Origin: Desertivirga arenae
GTDB lineage: Bacteria > Bacteroidota > Bacteroidia > Sphingobacteriales > Sphingobacteriaceae
Reading direction: 5' to 3'
Assembly: GCF_017355785.1 (NCBI RefSeq)
Contig: NZ_JAFEWE010000005.1
Location: forward strand, 62,001 to 126,000
DNA: 64,000 nt
Made by a program: the position numbers and the translations under genes. Shown here piece after piece: positions 34,275 to 50,509 of the stretch (position 1 is the first letter of the stretch; each line of letters starts with the position of its first letter). The notes below the pieces were generated by a model. It did no database searches, was not told the origin of the DNA, and was given only the letters and a program-made list of their open reading frames with translations.

Positions 34275-36206
34275 TTATTGGTAGCCTGGATTTTGATATC
34301 CAACTTTTGAAGCCGCATCCATTTGATCTATTTGTCCCTGGGGAATTGGACGCAAATACAAATACTTTGGAAGAGTTCTCTGAACTGTTGTTGGTGCAGC
34401 ACCAGCCGTGGCTGATATTCTGTACGAACCAGCATATTCCTCCCATTTTTGAGTACGTGCAAGATCATGCCAACGGTAACCTTCACCAAAATATTCACGA
34501 GACCGCTCGTCCAGGATGTAATTGATATCAATAACTGTAGGTGTGGCGTTAGTTAAAGCTGCAGAATTATCTTCAACTCTTGCAACATTTTCAGCAACAT
34601 CGAACTTCCACTTGCCTGCGCGAGCCCGGATAACATTAATTAATTCTCGTGCACTCTGACCAGGTCGAACGGTGGCACCTTTAACAGCAGCCTCAGCTGC
34701 AACAAAATAAAACTCCGAAAACTTCAAAATATTAAATGGACGAGAGCTTGCAATCTTATCGTCATTGTAATCGGTTGATTTGCGGTACGCTCCAAGTTTC
34801 CAAAGTCCCGGATAGATATTTCTTGAAATTTTGTCCAGAGGTACAACATAGTCAGCCCTACCCGCCAAAAACCCAGCTTCTGTATTATCATTAAAAACAG
34901 TGGATGTGGAATAATTTATTCCACCTGGATCTGAGGGTAAAAATGAAAGTACTTTTCCATTTTTTGATATAGGTAGAAAATTAGCACCATAGAGCGTTTG
35001 CTCGGTGCGAGCTGTATTTAAATGCCATGTGCCCCGGTAAACAGTAGTAAAAGTACCATTAAATCGAGAATCCTGTGTTTTATCTGAGAAAGTCTTTGTA
35101 AATACGTCTATTGGTGGGGTCATACGCATCCAGGGTCTTGAATACGACTGCCCTGCTTGAACTGTTCTAAACATCGCATCTACTGGAGACCATGTTGTGG
35201 GATTACTACTAGCTTTAATGTTTTGGAAATACCAGGTGGTCATCCATCCCGCCTGGTTTTGTCCATTTCCACCGTCCCATCCCGTAATATTACTCTCACT
35301 ATATTGTGCATTTGCTTCAGTATGATCCGCCCAGAGCATAATCTCCTTGTTACGATCGTTCTGCGCCAAATTAACATCGTAATAAGTAGCTTGAAGGGCG
35401 TAAGGACCTGGGGAATTTATACCTTCAACGGCAGTGTCATAAGCCTTTTGGAAATACCAAGCTGCATCATGGCCATCAGGGTCAGTCCTTCCCACTTCGG
35501 GATATGTTGGGATGCTGTTAGGATTTTGCAACCACCATCCATAAGTAAGATAGGCTTTAGCTAAAGTTAATCTTGCTACATTTTTAGTAATCGCGCCAGT
35601 TACTCTCGGGTTATCCGGTAAATCTGCAACTGCTTTAATGAGATCAGGAAAAACACCTAAAGTATACACTTCGGGCACTGTGTTTCGTTTTGAACTAATT
35701 GTTGGTGTCGTATTATATTCTAATATACCCCCTCCCAGATCCAGAGGAACTCCCCCAAATGTCTGCACGAGAAGAAAATAACTAAAAGACCTGAAAAAAC
35801 GTGCCTCGGCTAATAGGGATACAGGCATATTGGCCTCAGTTCCATTAGCTATAATTCCACTTGAAGAATTTATATTCGCATAGGCTGTATTCCATAATAC
35901 ATCCCAGCGGCTGTTTTGGGCATCAGGTATACCAAGACCGGATAGATCAGCAGCTCTGAAGTTTCCGTCTGCCTGCGATCCATATGTATATTCATCTGTA
36001 CCTGTTTCAGTAGCATTGTAGTAATAGGGCTGTCCGTAAAGGCGGCGTAAACCTGAATATAGGCCTGTTAAACCTCCTTTTACTCCAGCCTCTGTTTTGA
36101 AGAAACCTGGTTCAAAACGGTCGCGAGGAGTCTCATCTAGAATTTTATCGCAACTGGCTGTTAATACGAGGCCAGTAAGTGCTAAAATTTTATATATCCT
36201 TTGCAT
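34275..36206 (-). CDS. SusD-like nutrient-binding lipoprotein (third pair)
   Basis: RagB/SusD family lipoprotein of about 643 residues. The SPII signal ends in LTASC, followed by DKILDETPRDRF. N-terminal helices carry GGLTGLYSGLRRLYG and LAEARFFRSFSYFLLVQTFGGVPLDLG. C-terminal signatures are FYFVAAEAAVKGATVRPGQS, LDERSREYFGEGYRWHDLAR and YLRPIPQGQIDQMD, ending in NPGYQ. Start at 36206 or 36215 both give the signal peptide. It follows its SusC partner by a few bases and ends at a strong terminator. It is not closely similar to the other two SusD proteins here, so it probably binds a different glycan or a different xylan fragment. Confidence 0.9.
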   Translation of the reverse strand: MQRIYKILALTGLVLTASCDKILDETPRDRFEPGFFKTEAGVKGGLTGLYSGLRRLYGQPYYYNATETGTDEYTYGSQADGNFRAADLSGLGIPDAQNSRWDVLWNTAYANINSSSGIIANGTEANMPVSLLAEARFFRSFSYFLLVQTFGGVPLDLGGGILEYNTTPTISSKRNTVPEVYTLGVFPDLIKAVADLPDNPRVTGAITKNVARLTLAKAYLTYGWWLQNPNSIPTYPEVGRTDPDGHDAAWYFQKAYDTAVEGINSPGPYALQATYYDVNLAQNDRNKEIMLWADHTEANAQYSESNITGWDGGNGQNQAGWMTTWYFQNIKASSNPTTWSPVDAMFRTVQAGQSYSRPWMRMTPPIDVFTKTFSDKTQDSRFNGTFTTVYRGTWHLNTARTEQTLYGANFLPISKNGKVLSFLPSDPGGINYSTSTVFNDNTEAGFLAGRADYVVPLDKISRNIYPGLWKLGAYRKSTDYNDDKIASSRPFNILKFSEFYFVAAEAAVKGATVRPGQSARELINVIRARAGKWKFDVAENVARVEDNSAALTNATPTVIDINYILDERSREYFGEGYRWHDLARTQKWEEYAGSYRISATAGAAPTTVQRTLPKYLYLRPIPQGQIDQMDAASKVGYQNPGYQ

Positions 36207-36217
36207 GATAATCAATA

Positions 36218-39200
36218 TTAAAAGGTGAAGTTAAGTCCAAGTAAATAATTACGTGTTGATGGTACGTTGGAACCTACTACCGGTAGGCGTTGTACAATCT
36301 GAGTGTTAACTGCTTGGTTTTGATTCGCATACGAATTCGGCTCTGGGTCCATGCCGGATTCCTTATAATAAGGGGAGAACAAAATGAACGGATTCTGTGC
36401 AGTTACGTAAGCACGGGCATTATTTATGCCAGCAGCACGCATCCACTTTCCACTAAAGTTATAACCTAAAGAGATAGTCCTTATTTTTAAATAAGAAGCA
36501 TCAAAATAGGCCATTGTGCTCATGTATTTGGGATTATCGCCTGCTGTTATACCTCCCGGACGAGGATATTTTGCCCCGGTATTTTCAGGCGTCCAATAGT
36601 CAACTACTGCATTATTGTGGCGGCCATTCAAAAGATTTAAATAGCTTGAACTCCCATAAAATGTAGAAATTAGTTTGCCTCCCCCTTTGAATGCAGCAAC
36701 CAAATTTAAGTCAAAGCCTTTGTAGGCCAAACGCGTGTTAAATCCTCCCTGGAAGTCTGGATCGTATTTAATTATCTGTCTGTCAGCAGCCCCTATCTGT
36801 CTAACAGGAACGCCATTTGCGTCATAATCCCCCGTATATTTCACCTTAATCATACCAACATTCCCACCGGGTTCAAGAACATTAAGGTAAGGATCTCCAG
36901 CTTGCCACAAACCTGTTCTTTCATAATCGAAGATGACATTGATCGGCTGTCCAACAAACCACCAGTTACCCTCATTTCTGTCAGCACCAGATGAAAGCGC
37001 TACTAACTTATTCCTGTTTGTGTAGATATTGAATCCGGCTTCCCATTTTAAACCTTTAGGGTTATCTATTATAGTTCCGTTAAGTGAAAGCTCAAATCCT
37101 TTATTTTCGGTTTCACCTATGTTATCAGTATAACCAGGAACACCTGCTGTTGACGGCAGATTTAAATACAGGAGAATATCTGTAGTATGCTGCTTGTAAT
37201 ACTCCATTGTTCCATTTAGCCTTCCTTTAAACAGACCGAAATCCAGACCGAAATTCCAGGTATTTGTAAACTCCCAACCTAGTCTTGGACTCGGAAGTTG
37301 ATCAATTATATAACCATTTTCATAACTATCGGCACCTGCATCCCCAAAATTATAGTATCTGACACCTAGTCTTCCTAGCGTTGTATAGGGTAGAACTGCT
37401 TGATTTGAGGTTACCCCGTATCCAGCCCGAAGCTTTAAAGAACTTAAGGCAGTGAAATCCTGCATGAATGCTTCCTGACCAATGTTCCAACCAGCAGAAA
37501 CAGCTGGATAAGTGTGCCACTTATGCCCAGGAGCAAGCCTTGATGAACCATCCGACCTAAGAGCTGCCGAAAGCATGTAGCGATTGTCAAAATTATACAT
37601 AACGCGTCCCATGTAGGATAGTAATCCCCAAACCTGTCTCCCTTGATTATCCGGGTTGATAGTGATATTACCAAGAGCCTGACCGAGGTTGTAATACTGG
37701 AAGTGCTCAGCAGCAAGATCTGCTACCGAAATATCTGAGCGATTGAAAGTATTCTCCTGAGCAGAATAAAGACCTACAACATTAAGTTGATGCTTTCCAA
37801 ACGTTTTATCGTAAGTTAAAAGGTTTTCAACGGTCCAGTCAGTCATCAGGGAGTTATTTATGCCGGCTCCCGATAATTCATTTGGATTAGTAGAGCTCGT
37901 TACCCCAACTCCAGTAAAAAACCCGCCCGCTGTGGTGCGGATATTCAATCCAAGATTTACACGTGCTTTCAGTCCCTCAATCCCAGGAATGCGCATTTCT
38001 CCATATAAGTTATTATATGAACCAAATCCTTTTGACTCGCTTAACCATCTATCCTCAACCTCCTCAATCGATTCCTTTGTCCAAACGCGGTAAGGATCAA
38101 TAGAAGCAAAAGTTGCCCTTTTTAAATTACCATTTTGATCATAAGGTGATGCAAGCGGAGAAGCACCTAACGCGTCGCCTATACCAACCTGATTACCCTG
38201 TGTTATCCCATAACTATTATTGGATGTAAGCCCAAACTTTAAATACTTGCCGGCCTCCTGGTCCATTGCTGCACGAAGGGAATACCGTTTAAAATTGTTT
38301 GTTGGAAGCACTGATTCGTCCAGATAATAGCCTGCGCCAATAGAAAAGTTTCCTTTTTCTGATCCATTAGAAAAATTAACATCCTGGCTCATAGTCTTAC
38401 CATCACGATATAATAAGTCCTGCCAGTTGGTACTGGCATTGTCTGCTTCATCAGCAGATGGGCTGAACTTTCCTCCTCTGCCCAATTCATCTACCGTTCT
38501 GGCTGCCTCTGCTCTCAATTTTGCAAATTGAGGTCCGTCCATCATCGGAAATTGAGAAAGAACGCTTTTAATTCCATAGAATGAGTTGTATGAAACGCGC
38601 GCTGCTTGTCCTTTCTGTCCCCGAAACGAAGTCACCAATATAACTCCATTCGCTCCCCTCGATCCATAAATTGCAGTGGCTGATGCATCCTTAAGAATAT
38701 CGATACTTTTGATGTTATTGGGGTCAATATCATTAATAGAACCGGAAAATGGAATACCATCCAATACAACAAGAGGATCGTCTTGGCCATTTCCTGGATT
38801 GGTACTTAGTGACCGGGTTCCCCTGATGCGAATCTGCATTCCTGCACCAGGACGGCTGGATGTTTGGGTCATTTCTACCCCAGGTAACCGTCCTTGCAAT
38901 GACTGGGTAATATTAGTTGCGGGAACTTCTCTTAAAGTTTCTCCGCCCACTGATGAAACAGAACCTGTTACAGCTTCCCTTCTTTGAGTACCATACCCAA
39001 TAACAACCACTTCCTGTAAGCTACGGGAATCAGGTGCAAGTTTTATTGTTATGGATGTTTGGGAGCCAATACGCACTTCTTTATTTGTGTATCCTACAAA
39101 TGAAACCACTAATATGGTTTCATTTGCCGCAAGGGTGATACTAAATTTTCCGTTGACATCAGTTGTCGCTCCTGCGGCGCCCGACTTTGCCTTCACCGCC

Positions 39201-39343
39201 GCGCCTGGCAGGGGTTGACTATTTTCGTCTACAACCGTACCTGTTATTCGCTTGGTTTGAGCATAGGTTGCAGAGGAAATTGAAATAAATAGTAAGAATA
39301 GAAGAAATCCTCCCCTATTACAATTTAATATTAGTCTTTTCAT
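36218..39343 (-). CDS. SusC-like TonB-dependent receptor (third pair)
   Basis: SusC/RagA transporter, 1041 residues. Signal peptide ends in SATYAQ. A carboxypeptidase-regulatory-like domain covers about residues 33-105 (ITGTVVDENSQPLPGAAVKA). The TonB box QEVVVIGYGTQ is near residue 112, and the plug follows (DPLVVLDGIPFSGSINDIDP, DILKDASATAIYGSRGANGV). The barrel ends in NYLLGLNFTF with terminal Phe. It is expected to form a lidded import complex with the SusD encoded directly downstream. The pair has no dedicated glycosidase in its own transcript but abuts the side-chain operon, so it may import the branched oligosaccharides those enzymes treat. Confidence 0.9.
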   Translation of the reverse strand: MKRLILNCNRGGFLLFLLFISISSATYAQTKRITGTVVDENSQPLPGAAVKAKSGAAGATTDVNGKFSITLAANETILVVSFVGYTNKEVRIGSQTSITIKLAPDSRSLQEVVVIGYGTQRREAVTGSVSSVGGETLREVPATNITQSLQGRLPGVEMTQTSSRPGAGMQIRIRGTRSLSTNPGNGQDDPLVVLDGIPFSGSINDIDPNNIKSIDILKDASATAIYGSRGANGVILVTSFRGQKGQAARVSYNSFYGIKSVLSQFPMMDGPQFAKLRAEAARTVDELGRGGKFSPSADEADNASTNWQDLLYRDGKTMSQDVNFSNGSEKGNFSIGAGYYLDESVLPTNNFKRYSLRAAMDQEAGKYLKFGLTSNNSYGITQGNQVGIGDALGASPLASPYDQNGNLKRATFASIDPYRVWTKESIEEVEDRWLSESKGFGSYNNLYGEMRIPGIEGLKARVNLGLNIRTTAGGFFTGVGVTSSTNPNELSGAGINNSLMTDWTVENLLTYDKTFGKHQLNVVGLYSAQENTFNRSDISVADLAAEHFQYYNLGQALGNITINPDNQGRQVWGLLSYMGRVMYNFDNRYMLSAALRSDGSSRLAPGHKWHTYPAVSAGWNIGQEAFMQDFTALSSLKLRAGYGVTSNQAVLPYTTLGRLGVRYYNFGDAGADSYENGYIIDQLPSPRLGWEFTNTWNFGLDFGLFKGRLNGTMEYYKQHTTDILLYLNLPSTAGVPGYTDNIGETENKGFELSLNGTIIDNPKGLKWEAGFNIYTNRNKLVALSSGADRNEGNWWFVGQPINVIFDYERTGLWQAGDPYLNVLEPGGNVGMIKVKYTGDYDANGVPVRQIGAADRQIIKYDPDFQGGFNTRLAYKGFDLNLVAAFKGGGKLISTFYGSSSYLNLLNGRHNNAVVDYWTPENTGAKYPRPGGITAGDNPKYMSTMAYFDASYLKIRTISLGYNFSGKWMRAAGINNARAYVTAQNPFILFSPYYKESGMDPEPNSYANQNQAVNTQIVQRLPVVGSNVPSTRNYLLGLNFTF

Positions 39344-39669: not shown

Positions 39670-41505
39670 TCACCCATGATGATCTTGTTGCATATCCTTA
39701 TTCCGTTCATCATCTAAAGCCCTGTTTAAATGGAGTGCAGCACTTATAAGGCCTAGATGAGTGAAAGCTTGAGGAAAGTTTCCAAGGTGTTGCCCCTGTA
39801 ACCCTAGCATTTCTGAATAAAGGCCTAAGTGATTTGCATAGCCTAACATCTTCTCAAAATACAGACGTGCCTTTGTAATTTCGCCGGCTAATGCTAAGTT
39901 CTCCACATACCAGAAAGTACACATAGAAAAGGTACCTTCTCCTCCAGATAAGCCATCCAGCCGTTCGTTGGGTCGGTATCGGTAAACCAGAAAGTCGGAG
40001 ACCAGTTCTTGCTCAATGCGACTCAAGGTAGACAACCATTGAGGATCCCTGGGAGCAATAAAACGGATCATGGGCATCAGCAAGGTTGCTGCATCAACAG
40101 TTTTTGCTCCTTTATACTGCACAAAGGCTTTTAAATCTTCATTCCAAAACTCCATGTGTATGGAGTTGAAAATTCTATCACGTTCACTTATCCAATTTTG
40201 ATTTAGAGGGTAAGAATGCTTTTGAGCAATTCTAATTCCTCTGTCCAACGCAACCCAACACATTACTCGCGAGTACAGAAATTCTTTCTTACCTCCCCTA
40301 ACTTCCCAAATTCCTTCATCACTCCGGTGCCAGTTATCACAAACCCAATCAACATGCCTGGAAAGATCTTTCCAGAACCCGTAAGAAATTGGCTCCACCT
40401 CTTTATCATACAAATAAACAGAATCAATCAACTCGCCATAAATATCCAATTGAATTTGCGTATGAGCTCCGTTTCCTATCCTGACCGGAGAAGACCTTTT
40501 ATAACCTTCAAGGTGTGGCAGAGCTTCCTCCGGAAGATCCTTATCTCCATTTAACTTGTACATTAGATTGAGGAACTCATTACTCTTGGAAATATCCTGA
40601 CACCGTTTTTCAATCCAGTTTATAAAAGCCCTTGCCTCCTTCCGGTAACCTAACTTTAAAAATGTATAAATAGTAAATGAAGCGTCTCTTATCCATAAAT
40701 AGCGATAGTCCCAGTTACGTTCCCCGCCGATCTCCTCGGGAAGCCCAAAAGTGGGTGAGGCTACCATAGATCCGTATTTAAATGAAGTCATAAGCTTAAG
40801 GCATAAAGCAGAACGATTAACAACCTCCATCCACCGGCCTTTGTACTTTGACTTGTCAATCCAGTCTTTCCAATACTTTATGGTAGCATAAAGACTCTCC
40901 GTTATGAAATCCTCCATTCCTTGGGCCAGAATATTTTTTCCATCAACTAATTCGAATAGAAAGTCTGCCTTTTCACCTTTTTTTAATTTGAAGCTACACT
41001 TAGCGTCCCCATCCTTTATTTCCAAAGGGACTGTACTTTTCAGCCTAACAGAAATTTCATTTTCTCCCTCTGCTTTGAATAAGATTTCATTTTCACTAAT
41101 TAGTTCTGCATCATGAGCTATTCGTCCATAATCAAACCGGGGGCAACATTCAAGATCGAATTCGTACTCCCCCTGAATGCAGGTTACTCTCCTGATTAAC
41201 TCTTTCCCTCCATACAATTCTTCTACAGGCATAAAGTCAGTTAACTCCGCAACCCCTTTATTTGATAAAAATCTGGTAAGTAACACGTTGGTATCGGGAA
41301 GATAAAGCTGTTTGTACTTCAGCTCGTCGGATTTAGGACTGATCTTAAAGCTACCTCCCTTGTTTGCGTCTAATAGAGCAGCGAAAATAGTAGGAGAATC
41401 AAAATCCGGGAAACACATAAAATCAACAGAGCCATTTAAATTTACAAGGGCAACTGTATTTAGATCTCCTATAATTCCGTAATTCTCTATTGGTTGATAA
41501 GTCAT
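39670..41505 (-). CDS. GH15 family protein (glucoamylase- or trehalase-like)
   Basis: Cytoplasmic-looking protein of 611 residues without a signal peptide. The N-terminal sandwich begins MTYQPIENYGIIGDLNTVAL and contains VDFMCFPDFDSPTIF, as in the trehalase-like domain before GH15 barrels. The (alpha/alpha)6 barrel shows GGERNWDYRYLWIRDASFTI, RSDEGIWEVRGGKKEFLYSR with the likely catalytic acid Glu, and CTFWYVENLALAGEI with the second Glu region. Members hydrolyse alpha-1,4-glucans or trehalose, and sequence alone does not separate the two. It is a single gene; a 7-bp inverted repeat lies about 20 bp upstream of its start. It has no obvious link to the xylan locus. Confidence 0.85.
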   Translation of the reverse strand: MTYQPIENYGIIGDLNTVALVNLNGSVDFMCFPDFDSPTIFAALLDANKGGSFKISPKSDELKYKQLYLPDTNVLLTRFLSNKGVAELTDFMPVEELYGGKELIRRVTCIQGEYEFDLECCPRFDYGRIAHDAELISENEILFKAEGENEISVRLKSTVPLEIKDGDAKCSFKLKKGEKADFLFELVDGKNILAQGMEDFITESLYATIKYWKDWIDKSKYKGRWMEVVNRSALCLKLMTSFKYGSMVASPTFGLPEEIGGERNWDYRYLWIRDASFTIYTFLKLGYRKEARAFINWIEKRCQDISKSNEFLNLMYKLNGDKDLPEEALPHLEGYKRSSPVRIGNGAHTQIQLDIYGELIDSVYLYDKEVEPISYGFWKDLSRHVDWVCDNWHRSDEGIWEVRGGKKEFLYSRVMCWVALDRGIRIAQKHSYPLNQNWISERDRIFNSIHMEFWNEDLKAFVQYKGAKTVDAATLLMPMIRFIAPRDPQWLSTLSRIEQELVSDFLVYRYRPNERLDGLSGGEGTFSMCTFWYVENLALAGEITKARLYFEKMLGYANHLGLYSEMLGLQGQHLGNFPQAFTHLGLISAALHLNRALDDERNKDMQQDHHG

Positions 41506-41675: not shown

Positions 41676-42113
41676 CTATTTAGAGTTGTTTTTTATAAAA
41701 TCGCTTATAATTCTGCTAACTGGATGATGAATATCAAGTACTTCCTGAAAATACTCTTTCTGTTCTATGGATGTAAATGAATCCAGGAACTTATAGGCTT
41801 CTACTCCTAAAGATTTGAATGCAAGAGGTTCCTCCTCGAAAAATCTAAAGGGAACAGGCCCAAAATAAAGTTTAATGATACTATGATGCCCCTGGTACTT
41901 TTTAATCTCTTCATATTGGTGTTGTACCTGCGCTTTCGCTCCTTCTGCTAAAAGCAGAATATTACCTCGTGCATTAATAACAATTCCGGTTATGCCATTC
42001 GCCTTCCGCACCTCCCTCCTTTTAGCCAGGTCTTTCTCTATCTGTTCAGGTGTGATCTCTTTTACCGTTGTGCTTAACAGCACGACGCTCCATAGTTCAT
42101 TCTCACTTTCCAT
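41676..42113 (-). CDS. BLUF-like domain protein lacking flavin photochemistry residues
   Basis: Cytoplasmic protein of 145 residues with the BLUF ferredoxin-like fold pattern: SVVLLSTTVKEITPEQIEKD, then ANGITGIVINARGNILLLAEG, then QHQYEEIKKYQGHHSIIKLY and a C-terminal helical cap. BLUF proteins sense blue light through FAD using a Tyr, an Asn and a Gln. Aligned by the GITG and EG motifs, the Tyr position is Leu 12, the Asn position falls on Val 35/Arg 36, and the Gln position is Leu 54. All three are therefore missing, and light sensing by the usual route is unlikely. Its partner is unknown; the neighbours are a GH15 gene and a small lipoprotein gene. Confidence 0.7.
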   Translation of the reverse strand: MESENELWSVVLLSTTVKEITPEQIEKDLAKRREVRKANGITGIVINARGNILLLAEGAKAQVQHQYEEIKKYQGHHSIIKLYFGPVPFRFFEEEPLAFKSLGVEAYKFLDSFTSIEQKEYFQEVLDIHHPVSRIISDFIKNNSK

Positions 42114-46351: not shown

Positions 46352-49300
46352 TTATGCACGAATTTTATCTGCTGATTCTATCAGCGACTTCTTTAATATC
46401 TCTACATTTATAGGTTTTGTAATATAATCATTCATTCCAGCGCTGATGCAAGCTTCCCGGTCCTCCGTCATAGCATTTGCCGTCATCGCTATAATCATTG
46501 GCTGATGCTTATGATTTTGCCTGATGTACCTGGTCGCTTCCAGACCGTCCATAACAGGCATTAGCATGTCCATCAACACCACATCGTATGAACGGTCAAG
46601 TAACATATCTACTGCCTCCTGACCATTATTTGCAAGCCCGGGTTCATATCCTAGCTTGGTAAGAATCCGCATTGCAAGCTTTTGATTTATAATATTATCT
46701 TCCACAAGCAGAATATTGAGAGGAAAACTCTCTGCGAAATCATCAGATAAAGCAACCGCCTTTTTTTCCTCCTGTTTCTGGGGTTGTTTTTGTTGCTTAA
46801 GCTCTGCCTGCACCAACTTAAACAAGGGCTGTTGTTTTACTGGTTTCGTAAGTACAGAATTAAACAAGTGGGGATATTTTGATCGTGATTCATCACCAAT
46901 AGAACTTAAGAGAATGATAGGTACATCTGGTGCTTTTTTCTTAATTGCTTCCGCAAGCTGTACACCATCCATTTCTGGCATCTGCATGTCGCTAATTATC
47001 AGTTGAAAATCTACCCCGCAATTTAATATTTCAAGGGCTCGAGCACCTGATTCAGCAAGAGTAACATCAAGCTTCCATAGCTCAAGTTGAGATTTTAATA
47101 TAGAGAGATTTGTTTTGTTATCGTCTACAACCAGAACCTTCTTCCCTTCATTCTCCGCAGCATTTAAAGTAACATAATGTTTTAACGCCTGGTTACCGGG
47201 CCGGGTTTGGATTGTGAAACTAAAGACAGAACCCAGCCCCTTAGTGCTTTCAACCCTAATATCACCTCCCATCAACCTAACCAGTCGCTCGCAAATAGCT
47301 AAACCTAGTCCAGTACCACCATATTTGCGGGTTGTGGATGAATCAACCTGAGAAAATGCCTGAAAAAGACGCGGTAACTTATCTTCCGGGATACCAATTC
47401 CTGAGTCTTTTACATCAAACTGAAGCTCGATATCATCACTATCTACATTTAGGACGCTTACTTTTACAAAAACTTCCCCTTGATGAGTGAATTTCAATGC
47501 ATTACCTACAAGATTGATCAGAACTTGTCTAAGCCTCAGGCTATCTCCAATAATCTGAGAAGGTGCTTTATTATCTATCTGATAGATTAGATCCAGACTC
47601 TGTTCGGCAGCTTTAGTAGCAAAAAGATCCATTACGTGCTCCACGCATTGATAAAGATTGAACTCATGATTTTCGAGTTCCATGTTCCCTGACTCAATTT
47701 TAGAAAAATCGAGAATATCATTTATTACGGCCAAAAGAGCATCTCCACTGTTTTGTATAACGCTTACATACTCAGACTGCTCAGCATTCAGACTGGTCTC
47801 AGACAATAGCGAAGCCATTCCAATAACTCCGTTCATAGGGGTCCGGATCTCATGACTCATAGTGGCAAGGAAAGTACTTTTTGCCTGATTTGCTTTCTCA
47901 GCCTTCTCTCTTTCTTCCTGCAGAGCCAAATTGAAATTCTTCAACTGCTCTGTTTGCTGCTGCAGCTCTCTCGATTGCTTAACAACTTCATTAGTCCTTT
48001 CCTGAACCTGCTTCTCGAGTTCTGCTTTCTGCCGATTCATTTTGTTTACACGATAGAAATAGAATATGATCGCTCCACCGACAATAATTATTAAACTAAT
48101 CGATATAAACCACCACGTTCGCCAGAATGGAGGAACTATTATTACTTTTATTGAAGCCCCTTCCTCATTCCAAACTCCATCATTGTTTGTCGCCTTTACT
48201 TTAAAAGCATACTCTCCAGGTGGAATATTAGTATAAGCAGCGTTTCTTGAAGCTCCGGCATTGATCCAATCTTTATCAAAGCCCTCCAGCTTGTAAGCAT
48301 ACTGGTTTTCCTTAGTTCGGGAGAAATTAAGAGCCACGAAATCAAAAGAAAACTCTGACTGATCATAGTTTAGTTTGATCTCCTTTGCTTCATTTATTAC
48401 TTCTTTTAAAGGAGCATCATTCCCCGGAATCACAGATCTACTCCCAGTCTTAAAATCCGTAATAAATACAGTGGGCTGCTTTTGGTTTATTTTTAACTTA
48501 CCAGGATGAAAGATGTTGAAACCATTTAGTCCCGCAAAAATAAATTCACCGCTTCTAAGCTTGTAGTAAGCTCTAGACAATAACTCATTATCATCATACC
48601 CGTTATTAAGGTTATAGTTTCTGAAGCTTCGTTTTCTGGTATCAAATTCGGATAGACCAGTATTAGTACTTAGCCATAACGCCCCCTTCCTGTCTTCCAG
48701 GATACCGTTAATGAAATTATTAGCCAAGCCATCTTTCTCAGTGAAACGCCTGAAAGAATTATCAGTTAGCAAAAGATTCAGACCAGCCTGAGTACCGATC
48801 CAGATATTTCCACGACTATCTTCAAGAATGTTTGAGACAAAATTATCACTGATGCTTGCTGGGTTATTACTATCATGCAAGAACTCTTTAAAAATCTGCT
48901 TTTCTATATTTATTTTAGTTAAACCTTGAAGATTTGAACCCAACCACAAATTATCCTTTCGGTCTATATAGAAACAGGTAATCCCCAAATAAGGAATATT
49001 TCTACCCTTCCAATAAATCCTATGAAACAGATTGTCATTCTTGTTGAACTTCATCACGCCACTGCTAAAAGAAGCAATGTAGAGTTCTCCTTTAGAATTC
49101 TCACGAATAAACCAGACGTCACGGATATTGAAGGTCTTTTTAGACTGATCGTCTACACCCTGGTATATCCTAAAAATATTTTTCTCGAGATCCACCTTCA
49201 CCGGACCTTGTTCGAATGTCCCCAACCAGAATTCGTCCCCACTAAACAGCATGGATGTTACTGTACCCAAAGTCACACCTGTTCGGTCAACAAAAAAATG

Positions 49301-50509
49301 CTTGAAATCTTTTCGTGAAGGGTTGAAAACATCAAATCCCTTCCGCAGGCCCAGAAAGATGTTTCCTTCCTTATTTTGAGTAACGCTAAAAACTTCTCTT
49401 CCGCCTAAACCAGAGGGTTTTCCAGGGTTGTAGCTATATCGGGGAAACTTTGAATGCTCTGCCTCCTTTACTGATAAACCAGCGATGCTCCCTACCCAAA
49501 TATTATCAGTTTTGTCAACATAAATGGTGTTTAGTCCATTATCAAGCAATGAATTTTCATCAAATGGATCGTTAGTATAATTTATGAAAGTATTGTTCTT
49601 TTTATTAAGAACGCTTACTCCCATATTGGTAGCTACCCAAAGCCTCCCATCTTTAGGCTGGCAGATTTTAGGAACATAATCTCCCAAAATGCTATTAGAG
49701 TTAAATTCACTGTGCTTGTAATGGTCGAAGGTTCTCGTCTTCTTTAAGAAATGATTAAGCCCGCCAAAAGCAGTCCCAATCCAAATCTCACCTTCCCTGT
49801 CTACAAAAATGGTTCTTATAGCATCAACGCTAAGACTTTGGGCACTTTGGGAGTGAATGTAAGAAGTAAAACTGGTTCTACGGCTATCTATTACAGTGAT
49901 TCCATGTTCGGTACCCACCCATAAATTCCCTGCTTTATCTTCATTAAGAGCACGGATAACATGGCTTACCAAACCCTTTTTACCTGATCCTGGTTCAAAA
50001 ACAACTTTAAACTTCTTTGTCTTCCTGTCAAAAACATTCAAACCAGCATCCTCAGTTCCAACGTAGAAGACACCTTTATGGTCCTCGAAAAAGCAAGTAA
50101 CCCTGTTTGAGCTTAAACTCTCAGAATCCTTCGCGTCATGTTTATACACCGAAAATTTATCCTGCTTCGCATCAAAAACATTAACACCTCCGTTATCCGT
50201 ACCTACATACATAACCCCTTGTCTGTCTATGAACGTGGTAATAATATTACTTCCGCTTAAACTACCCTTTACCTTTGAATTGCTCCTGTAAATCTTAAAA
50301 TGGTAACCATCATATTTATTCAGGCCATCTCCTGTCCCTATCCAGATGAATCCCTTGGGATCGCGAATAACATTTCTAATGAAACTTTGCGAGAGTCCGT
50401 CACGACTTGTCTTCCTTGTAAATTTAGTTGTGTTCTGAGCAAATAGCTGAAATGTAAAGCAAAGCATTAACACAAGTAAAAAAGTAGAAAGATTCTTATA
50501 TCTAATCAT
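46352..50509 (-). CDS. Propeller hybrid histidine kinase with two receiver domains and no DNA-binding output
   Basis: Membrane sensor kinase of 1385 residues. A signal peptide ends in FQLFAQ, two sets of propeller repeats follow ([28 protein letters not shown]), then a Y_Y_Y domain ([20 protein letters not shown]) and one membrane helix near residues 797-817. A coiled coil leads to HisKA with phospho-His near 884 ([19 protein letters not shown]) and a full HATPase ([15 protein letters not shown]). Two receivers follow, with Asp near 1173 ([12 protein letters not shown]) and near 1313 ([20 protein letters not shown]). The extracellular half is like the xylan regulator, but the AraC domain is replaced by a second receiver. 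Signal output must therefore pass to another protein, and none is encoded nearby. Confidence 0.92.

Follow-up and report, generated by a model that had tools for sequence, protein, structure and literature searches.

A BLUF homologue without the light-response residues and its multi-copy clade in a few Sphingobacteriaceae

Is a protein that belongs to the BLUF family still a light sensor when the residues of the flavin reaction have been replaced and, if it is not, what may it do in the cell? The question is raised by a short gene (Table 1) of the window analysed here, a stretch of 64,000 nucleotides from Desertivirga arenae. The first-pass annotation, made from the letters of the DNA, had assigned the product to the BLUF domain and had supposed that the fold was kept and the light chemistry lost. 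The assignment is borne out by the Pfam BLUF profile PF04940, which matches the protein with 42.4 bits (7.9e-11) against a cut-off of 25; the nearest sequences of solved structure are BLUF proteins, led by Slr1694/PixD and Tll0078/TePixD (E-values from 1e-4 to 9e-3), and a search of NCBIfam with the protein gave nothing near a cut-off. Before the gene, TATTTTTG fits the motif TAnnTTTG, the -7 element of Bacteroidota promoters; the motif has 60 matches in the window where 67.9 are expected, so that a match is no evidence by itself, and sigma-70 promoters were found in the sequence as often as expected (4 against 4.0).

Table 1. Features of the pseudo-BLUF gene, in positions of the window
Feature	Coordinates	Strand	Basis or remark
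Pseudo-BLUF gene	41676..42113	minus	145 aa, ATG start, stop included
BLUF homology domain, residues 9-94	41832..42089	minus	Pfam PF04940 match and structure alignment
Leu12 codon, place of the photochemical Tyr (PixD Tyr8)	42078..42080	minus	
Val35 and Arg36 codons, place of PixD Asn31/Asn32 (flavin C4=O contact)	42006..42011	minus	
Leu54 codon, place of the photochemical Gln (PixD Gln50)	41952..41954	minus	
Glu95 codon, place of the conserved Trp (PixD Trp91)	41829..41831	minus	
C-terminal helical cap, residues 105-145, three predicted helices	41679..41801	minus	model secondary structure
TATTTTTG, weak -7 element match, about 60 bp before the start codon	42175..42182	minus	

Residues were mapped by alignment to Slr1694/PixD as deposited in the PDB, the PixD numbers being counted on the PDB sequence. 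The three replacements proposed at first sight (Leu for Tyr, Val/Arg for Asn and Leu for Gln) are those obtained from this alignment. Indeed, the window protein has neither the reactive Tyr-Gln pair, nor, with Arg36, the Asn that contacts the flavin C4=O, nor the Trp/Met near strand 5, the place of Met93 being taken by Leu97; moreover, Asp69 corresponds to Tyr73 and Arg71 to Gly75, so that Tyr, Asn, Gln, Trp, Asp69 and Arg71 are all missing together. The AlphaFold2 model of the protein reached a pLDDT of 88.2 and a pTM of 0.83 from an input alignment of only 4 sequences, the other four models having a pLDDT of 63-86. It places core strands at residues 7-15, 42-48, 51-59, 78-86 and 98-101, with helices at 22-39 and 60-71, and three cap helices at 105-110, 116-127 and 131-143, which is the ferredoxin-like arrangement of a BLUF domain. 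The best 50 Foldseek rows are all BLUF proteins or BLUF-domain proteins (top E-value 6.1e-10), and several TePixD chains superpose on the model at 1.3-1.4 A over 97-98 columns. VIA-align superposes 131 residues of it on BlrP1 at 3.5 A (Z-score 16.3). Below the BLUF rows, this list has spliceosomal Prp3 domains at a Z-score of about 10, a resemblance that we take as the common ferredoxin-like arrangement. By alignment and predicted model the gene product is a BLUF homologue with the predicted BLUF fold and without the light-response residues. Both the retention of the fold and the loss of light chemistry are well supported by the profile, the model and the residue census given below.

Of the seven BLUF matches in the genome of the window, four score 97-104 bits and three score 32-43 bits; the strong ones carry the full set of Tyr, Asn, Gln and Trp, the weak ones none of these residues. 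With a profile of the weak type (A1) we searched 301 genomes of the GTDB family, 300 of the order and 395 of the phylum, many genomes of the order set being also in the family set. The survey revealed a multi-copy clade of relatives with such substitutions, which the first-pass annotation had missed: 15 intact members in 5 of the 301 family genomes, with 1-6 per genome (three in G000, three in Paradesertivirga mongoliensis, one in Pedobacter sp. SYSU D00535, two in G050 and six in G172, a genome that is 68% complete). The two names come from loci in these genomes, L066, which carries the same protein as L026, and L067, respectively. The high-scoring A1 rows from other genomes, among those examined, are canonical. 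Since the two types meet at an A1 score of about 92 bits (canonical L068, weak-type L060), the distinction between them rests on residues and tree and not on score.

In a census of the 15 weak-type members, hereafter pseudo-BLUFs, against 59 other rows, a few of which repeat one sequence, Gln50, Trp91 and Arg71 are kept in none of the 15 (59, 58 and 55 of the 59 others, respectively), Asp69 in one (59 of 59), Asn32 in four (58 of 59) and Tyr8 in seven (59 of 59). In a wider set, drawn from part of the matches listed and made up of 153 distinct sequences or fragments of BLUFs, 134 have the Gln and 19 lack it, namely the 15 pseudo-BLUFs, L120, L107, L109 and the fragment L116 of a frame-broken gene. 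Uniqueness of the Gln loss to the clade was therefore rejected: among these 153, loss of the Gln alone has occurred elsewhere and loss of the whole site is seen only in the 15-member clade. The three other proteins are Sphingobacteriaceae BLUFs in which the Gln is replaced by Glu (L120) or Gly (L107 and L109) with the rest of the site intact; they differ from the pseudo-BLUFs in keeping Tyr, Asn, Asp, Arg, His and Trp, and are not among the rows of the trees below. Three further Sphingobacteriaceae BLUFs (L105, L110 and L137) have Phe for Tyr and keep the Gln.

On a tree of 71 rows, the 15 pseudo-BLUFs form one side of a branch with a support of 100/100 and a stem of 1.27 changes per column. 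When the hallmark columns were removed, a tree of 48 rows that included the C-terminal tail gave a support of 99/100, and a quick tree of the core only (84 columns) kept the clade together with a support of 0; the support returned once the tail was included. Of 1000 bootstrap trees of the 48-row set, 751 join the clade to five canonical BLUFs from the same genomes (L002, L009, L016, L064 and L065, hereafter L002-type), which may for this reason represent its parent lineage. They are the closest canonical group of the genome of the window (L002 scores 85 bits against the A1 model) and differ from the pseudo-BLUFs in keeping Tyr, Asn, Gln and Trp. The member L055, which branches first in the 71-row tree and is unresolved in the 48-row tree, retains Tyr, Asn and Asp but none of Gln, Trp and Arg71; from this it seems that the Gln-Trp-Arg side was the first part of the flavin site to be lost. 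As to other origins, three viral scans yielded one canonical-looking BLUF gene (L104, 166-600) on a contig classed as viral in IMG/VR that may be host DNA, and the best plasmid match is only 25% identical; neither a viral nor a plasmid origin was retained.

Comparison of sequence conservation reveals where the constraint on the pseudo-BLUFs lies. At a threshold of at least 80% identity, the 15 sequences have 13 conserved core columns and 11 conserved tail columns; in 25 random samples of 15 canonical sequences the means are 24.3 (20-29) and 1.1 (0-4), respectively. A fairer control, ten samples of 15 drawn from 21 canonical BLUFs of one genus, gave 30-36 core and 3-6 tail columns. Mean identity is lower in the core (0.33) than in the tail (0.38) of the pseudo-BLUFs, whereas the one-genus canonical samples have 0.48-0.52 in the core and 0.26-0.34 in the tail. 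The five L002-type rows, which are closer kin, show 46 core and 14 tail columns with identities of 0.56 and 0.45; tail conservation by itself is thus not unique, and it is the reversal of identity between core and tail that is unique to the pseudo-BLUFs in these comparisons. Specific tail residues are kept in 12-15 of the 15 copies; the newly conserved ones include Asp111, Tyr121 and Glu124, and Phe139 and Asn143 are also common to many canonical tails. Conservation has thus shifted away from the flavin pocket and into the helical cap at the C-terminus, which favours a role in protein interaction.

In the known systems, BLUF photochemistry uses a flavin-Gln-Tyr network, and PixD signals by binding PixE with a change of oligomer, a stable PixE complex not being formed by C-terminally truncated PixD, according to PMC5899715. 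The short BLUF photoreceptors (PixD/Slr1694, TePixD/Tll0078, BlrB and BlsA) resemble the window protein in domain, similar length, predicted fold and helical cap, but have the Tyr-Gln pair, the Asn, the Trp/Met and the Asp/Arg pair that it has lost, and its clade is conserved more in the cap than in the pocket. The mutants described in PMC6695109 show what changes at single positions can do: BlsA with Q51A or W92A acts like the lit protein, and a locked, pseudo-lit state is reported for PixD Q50A and AppA Q63E. A protein that has lost these residues can thus remain competent to signal. These are laboratory single changes at the Gln or Trp positions also altered in the pseudo-BLUFs, whereas the window protein belongs to a natural lineage with at least six changes at once. 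According to the same source, PixD W91A has wild-type photochemistry, which makes loss of the Trp alone not decisive, and BlsA Y7A, Q51A and W92A were insoluble when overproduced, so that a stable protein after the loss of these residues is not assured.

Taking these points together, we think it somewhat probable that the gene encodes a BLUF-derived protein no longer sensing light, a light-independent binding partner in the system of the photoactive short BLUFs. It would descend from a short BLUF gene of PixD type, duplicated in an ancestor that a few Sphingobacteriaceae share. One duplicate would have lost the Gln-Trp-Arg side of the flavin site early and Asp, Asn and Tyr later, and would then have multiplied to up to six per genome. 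Retained throughout would be the ferredoxin-like BLUF core and the C-terminal helical cap, through which short BLUFs signal. We infer the loss of the flavin photocycle, the order in which the residues were lost, a fixed state, an interaction role and the identity of the partner: the protein, held in one signalling state, would act on a partner by means of its cap. It may share this partner or oligomer with its photoactive paralogues, and would either occupy the partner protein of the photoactive short BLUFs in the same cell or join their oligomer. It probably works beside these photoactive BLUFs. A wider proposal, which we advance tentatively and with more doubt, is that of a natural family of pseudo-photoreceptors, dismantled stepwise (Gln, Trp and Arg71 first, Tyr last), kept and multiplied to up to six per genome, whose members would be light-independent subunits or decoys tuning photoactive BLUFs as pseudokinases tune kinases.

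The supposition of the first-pass annotation that the protein had become "a ligand sensor or protein-interaction module" can be kept as a suggestion, of which the conservation shift favours the second half. As to the first half, 12 of the 15 copies have an Arg in the pocket, at the former place of Asn32 or of Gln50, which is compatible with an anionic ligand: a different small molecule, probably an anion, would bind to this Arg and fill the cavity that the flavin has left. Seven of the 15 sequences have the Arg at position 36 and five at position 54, none at both, and the 56 canonical rows have it at neither; the lack of overlap has P = 0.019 if rows are treated as independent, but on the tree Arg36 requires 2 and Arg54 3 changes, so that the rows are not independent and the value is only a hint. 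With three pseudo-BLUFs having no Arg at either place and the other pocket positions highly variable (10 changes at position 54, 9 at 73 and 9 at 95), unlike a conserved ligand site, we consider such a sensor unlikely. Continued binding of flavin for another use, redox sensing or an altered photoreaction, appears quite improbable: whereas Tyr is kept in 7 and Asn in 4 clade members, and Tyr and Gln mutants of BlrB are described as still binding FAD in PMC6695109, the window protein combines the loss of all six residues, and the Asp69-Arg71 pair has all but gone from the clade, with the counts given in the census.

A decaying duplicate without function might be suspected from the faster evolution of the clade (for one pair of each type, compared across the same two genomes, dN is 0.28 in the pseudo-BLUFs and 0.12 in the canonical proteins) and from a same-genus species, G001, in which no intact BLUF was found, only a frame-broken remnant (L117, C11:765600-766700). 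Against this reading, the frames are open in all 15 copies, and a simple model of neutral evolution, run at 0.2, 0.3 and 0.5 replacements per site, left the frame open in 4.4%, 1.0% and 0.1% of cases, respectively. Furthermore, pN is far below pS in five pairs (0.24-0.42 against 0.72-0.93, for example 0.24 against 0.78), though pS is saturated and no ratio is claimed save a rough 0.20 for the pair P0001-L006, and the specific tail residues mentioned above are conserved. The clade is under purifying selection, and we give decay very little credence. An enzyme or other ferredoxin-like protein that merely resembles a BLUF, for example of acylphosphatase type, is hardly credible: the weak Pfam acylphosphatase match (PF00708, residues 38-79) reaches 16.5 bits, below its cut-off of 22.5, whereas the BLUF match is well above its own, and the structure matches are led by BLUF.

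If the binding-partner reading is correct, the clade would be a natural experiment in the dismantling of a photoreceptor, showing which part of a BLUF is worth keeping when light is irrelevant, with natural intermediates from which the sequence of losses could be read. It might also provide fixed-state BLUF scaffolds for optogenetics, and the annotation "BLUF domain-containing protein" need not then mean a light sensor. Several BLUF genes per genome are known in Acinetobacter, according to PMC3554667. The search pattern of the BLUF survey PMC4844311 starts with the Tyr and ends with the Gln; as it requires this pair, the survey could not find pseudo-BLUFs, and surveys of this kind would miss such proteins. 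Among the open-licence PMC papers listed, no report of such a pseudo-BLUF clade was found.

The surroundings of the genes were compared using the ORFs within about 8 kb on either side of the 15 loci and of several canonical loci, with 30 neighbour proteins scanned against Pfam. Apart from ordinary histidine kinases and response regulators, the neighbourhoods of the 15 loci have no gene family in common, and no partner gene recurs next to them. A histidine kinase or response regulator adjoins four of the 15 (L084, L093, L096 and L100), from which nothing is drawn because such genes are common in these genomes (60-122 kinase matches per genome). In the window, an operon with the GH15 gene at 39670-41505 was considered as a clue and rejected: orthologues of this gene in two genomes of the same genus (78% and 64% identical), one of them G001, have no match to the window protein within about 1.5 kb on either side. 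At 34275-39343 and 46352-50509 the window also has a SusD/SusC-type pair and, in its vicinity, a hybrid two-component regulator (Reg_prop, Y_Y_Y, HisKA and two receivers) as well as a GH15 gene. Elsewhere in the survey, genome G474 encodes, at a short distance from each other, two fusions of an AraC-type HTH with a C-terminal BLUF domain (L114, 49-1500, and L118, 46-1350); one of the two has Lys for the Asn and Cys for the Trp of the BLUF site, with Tyr and Gln unchanged.
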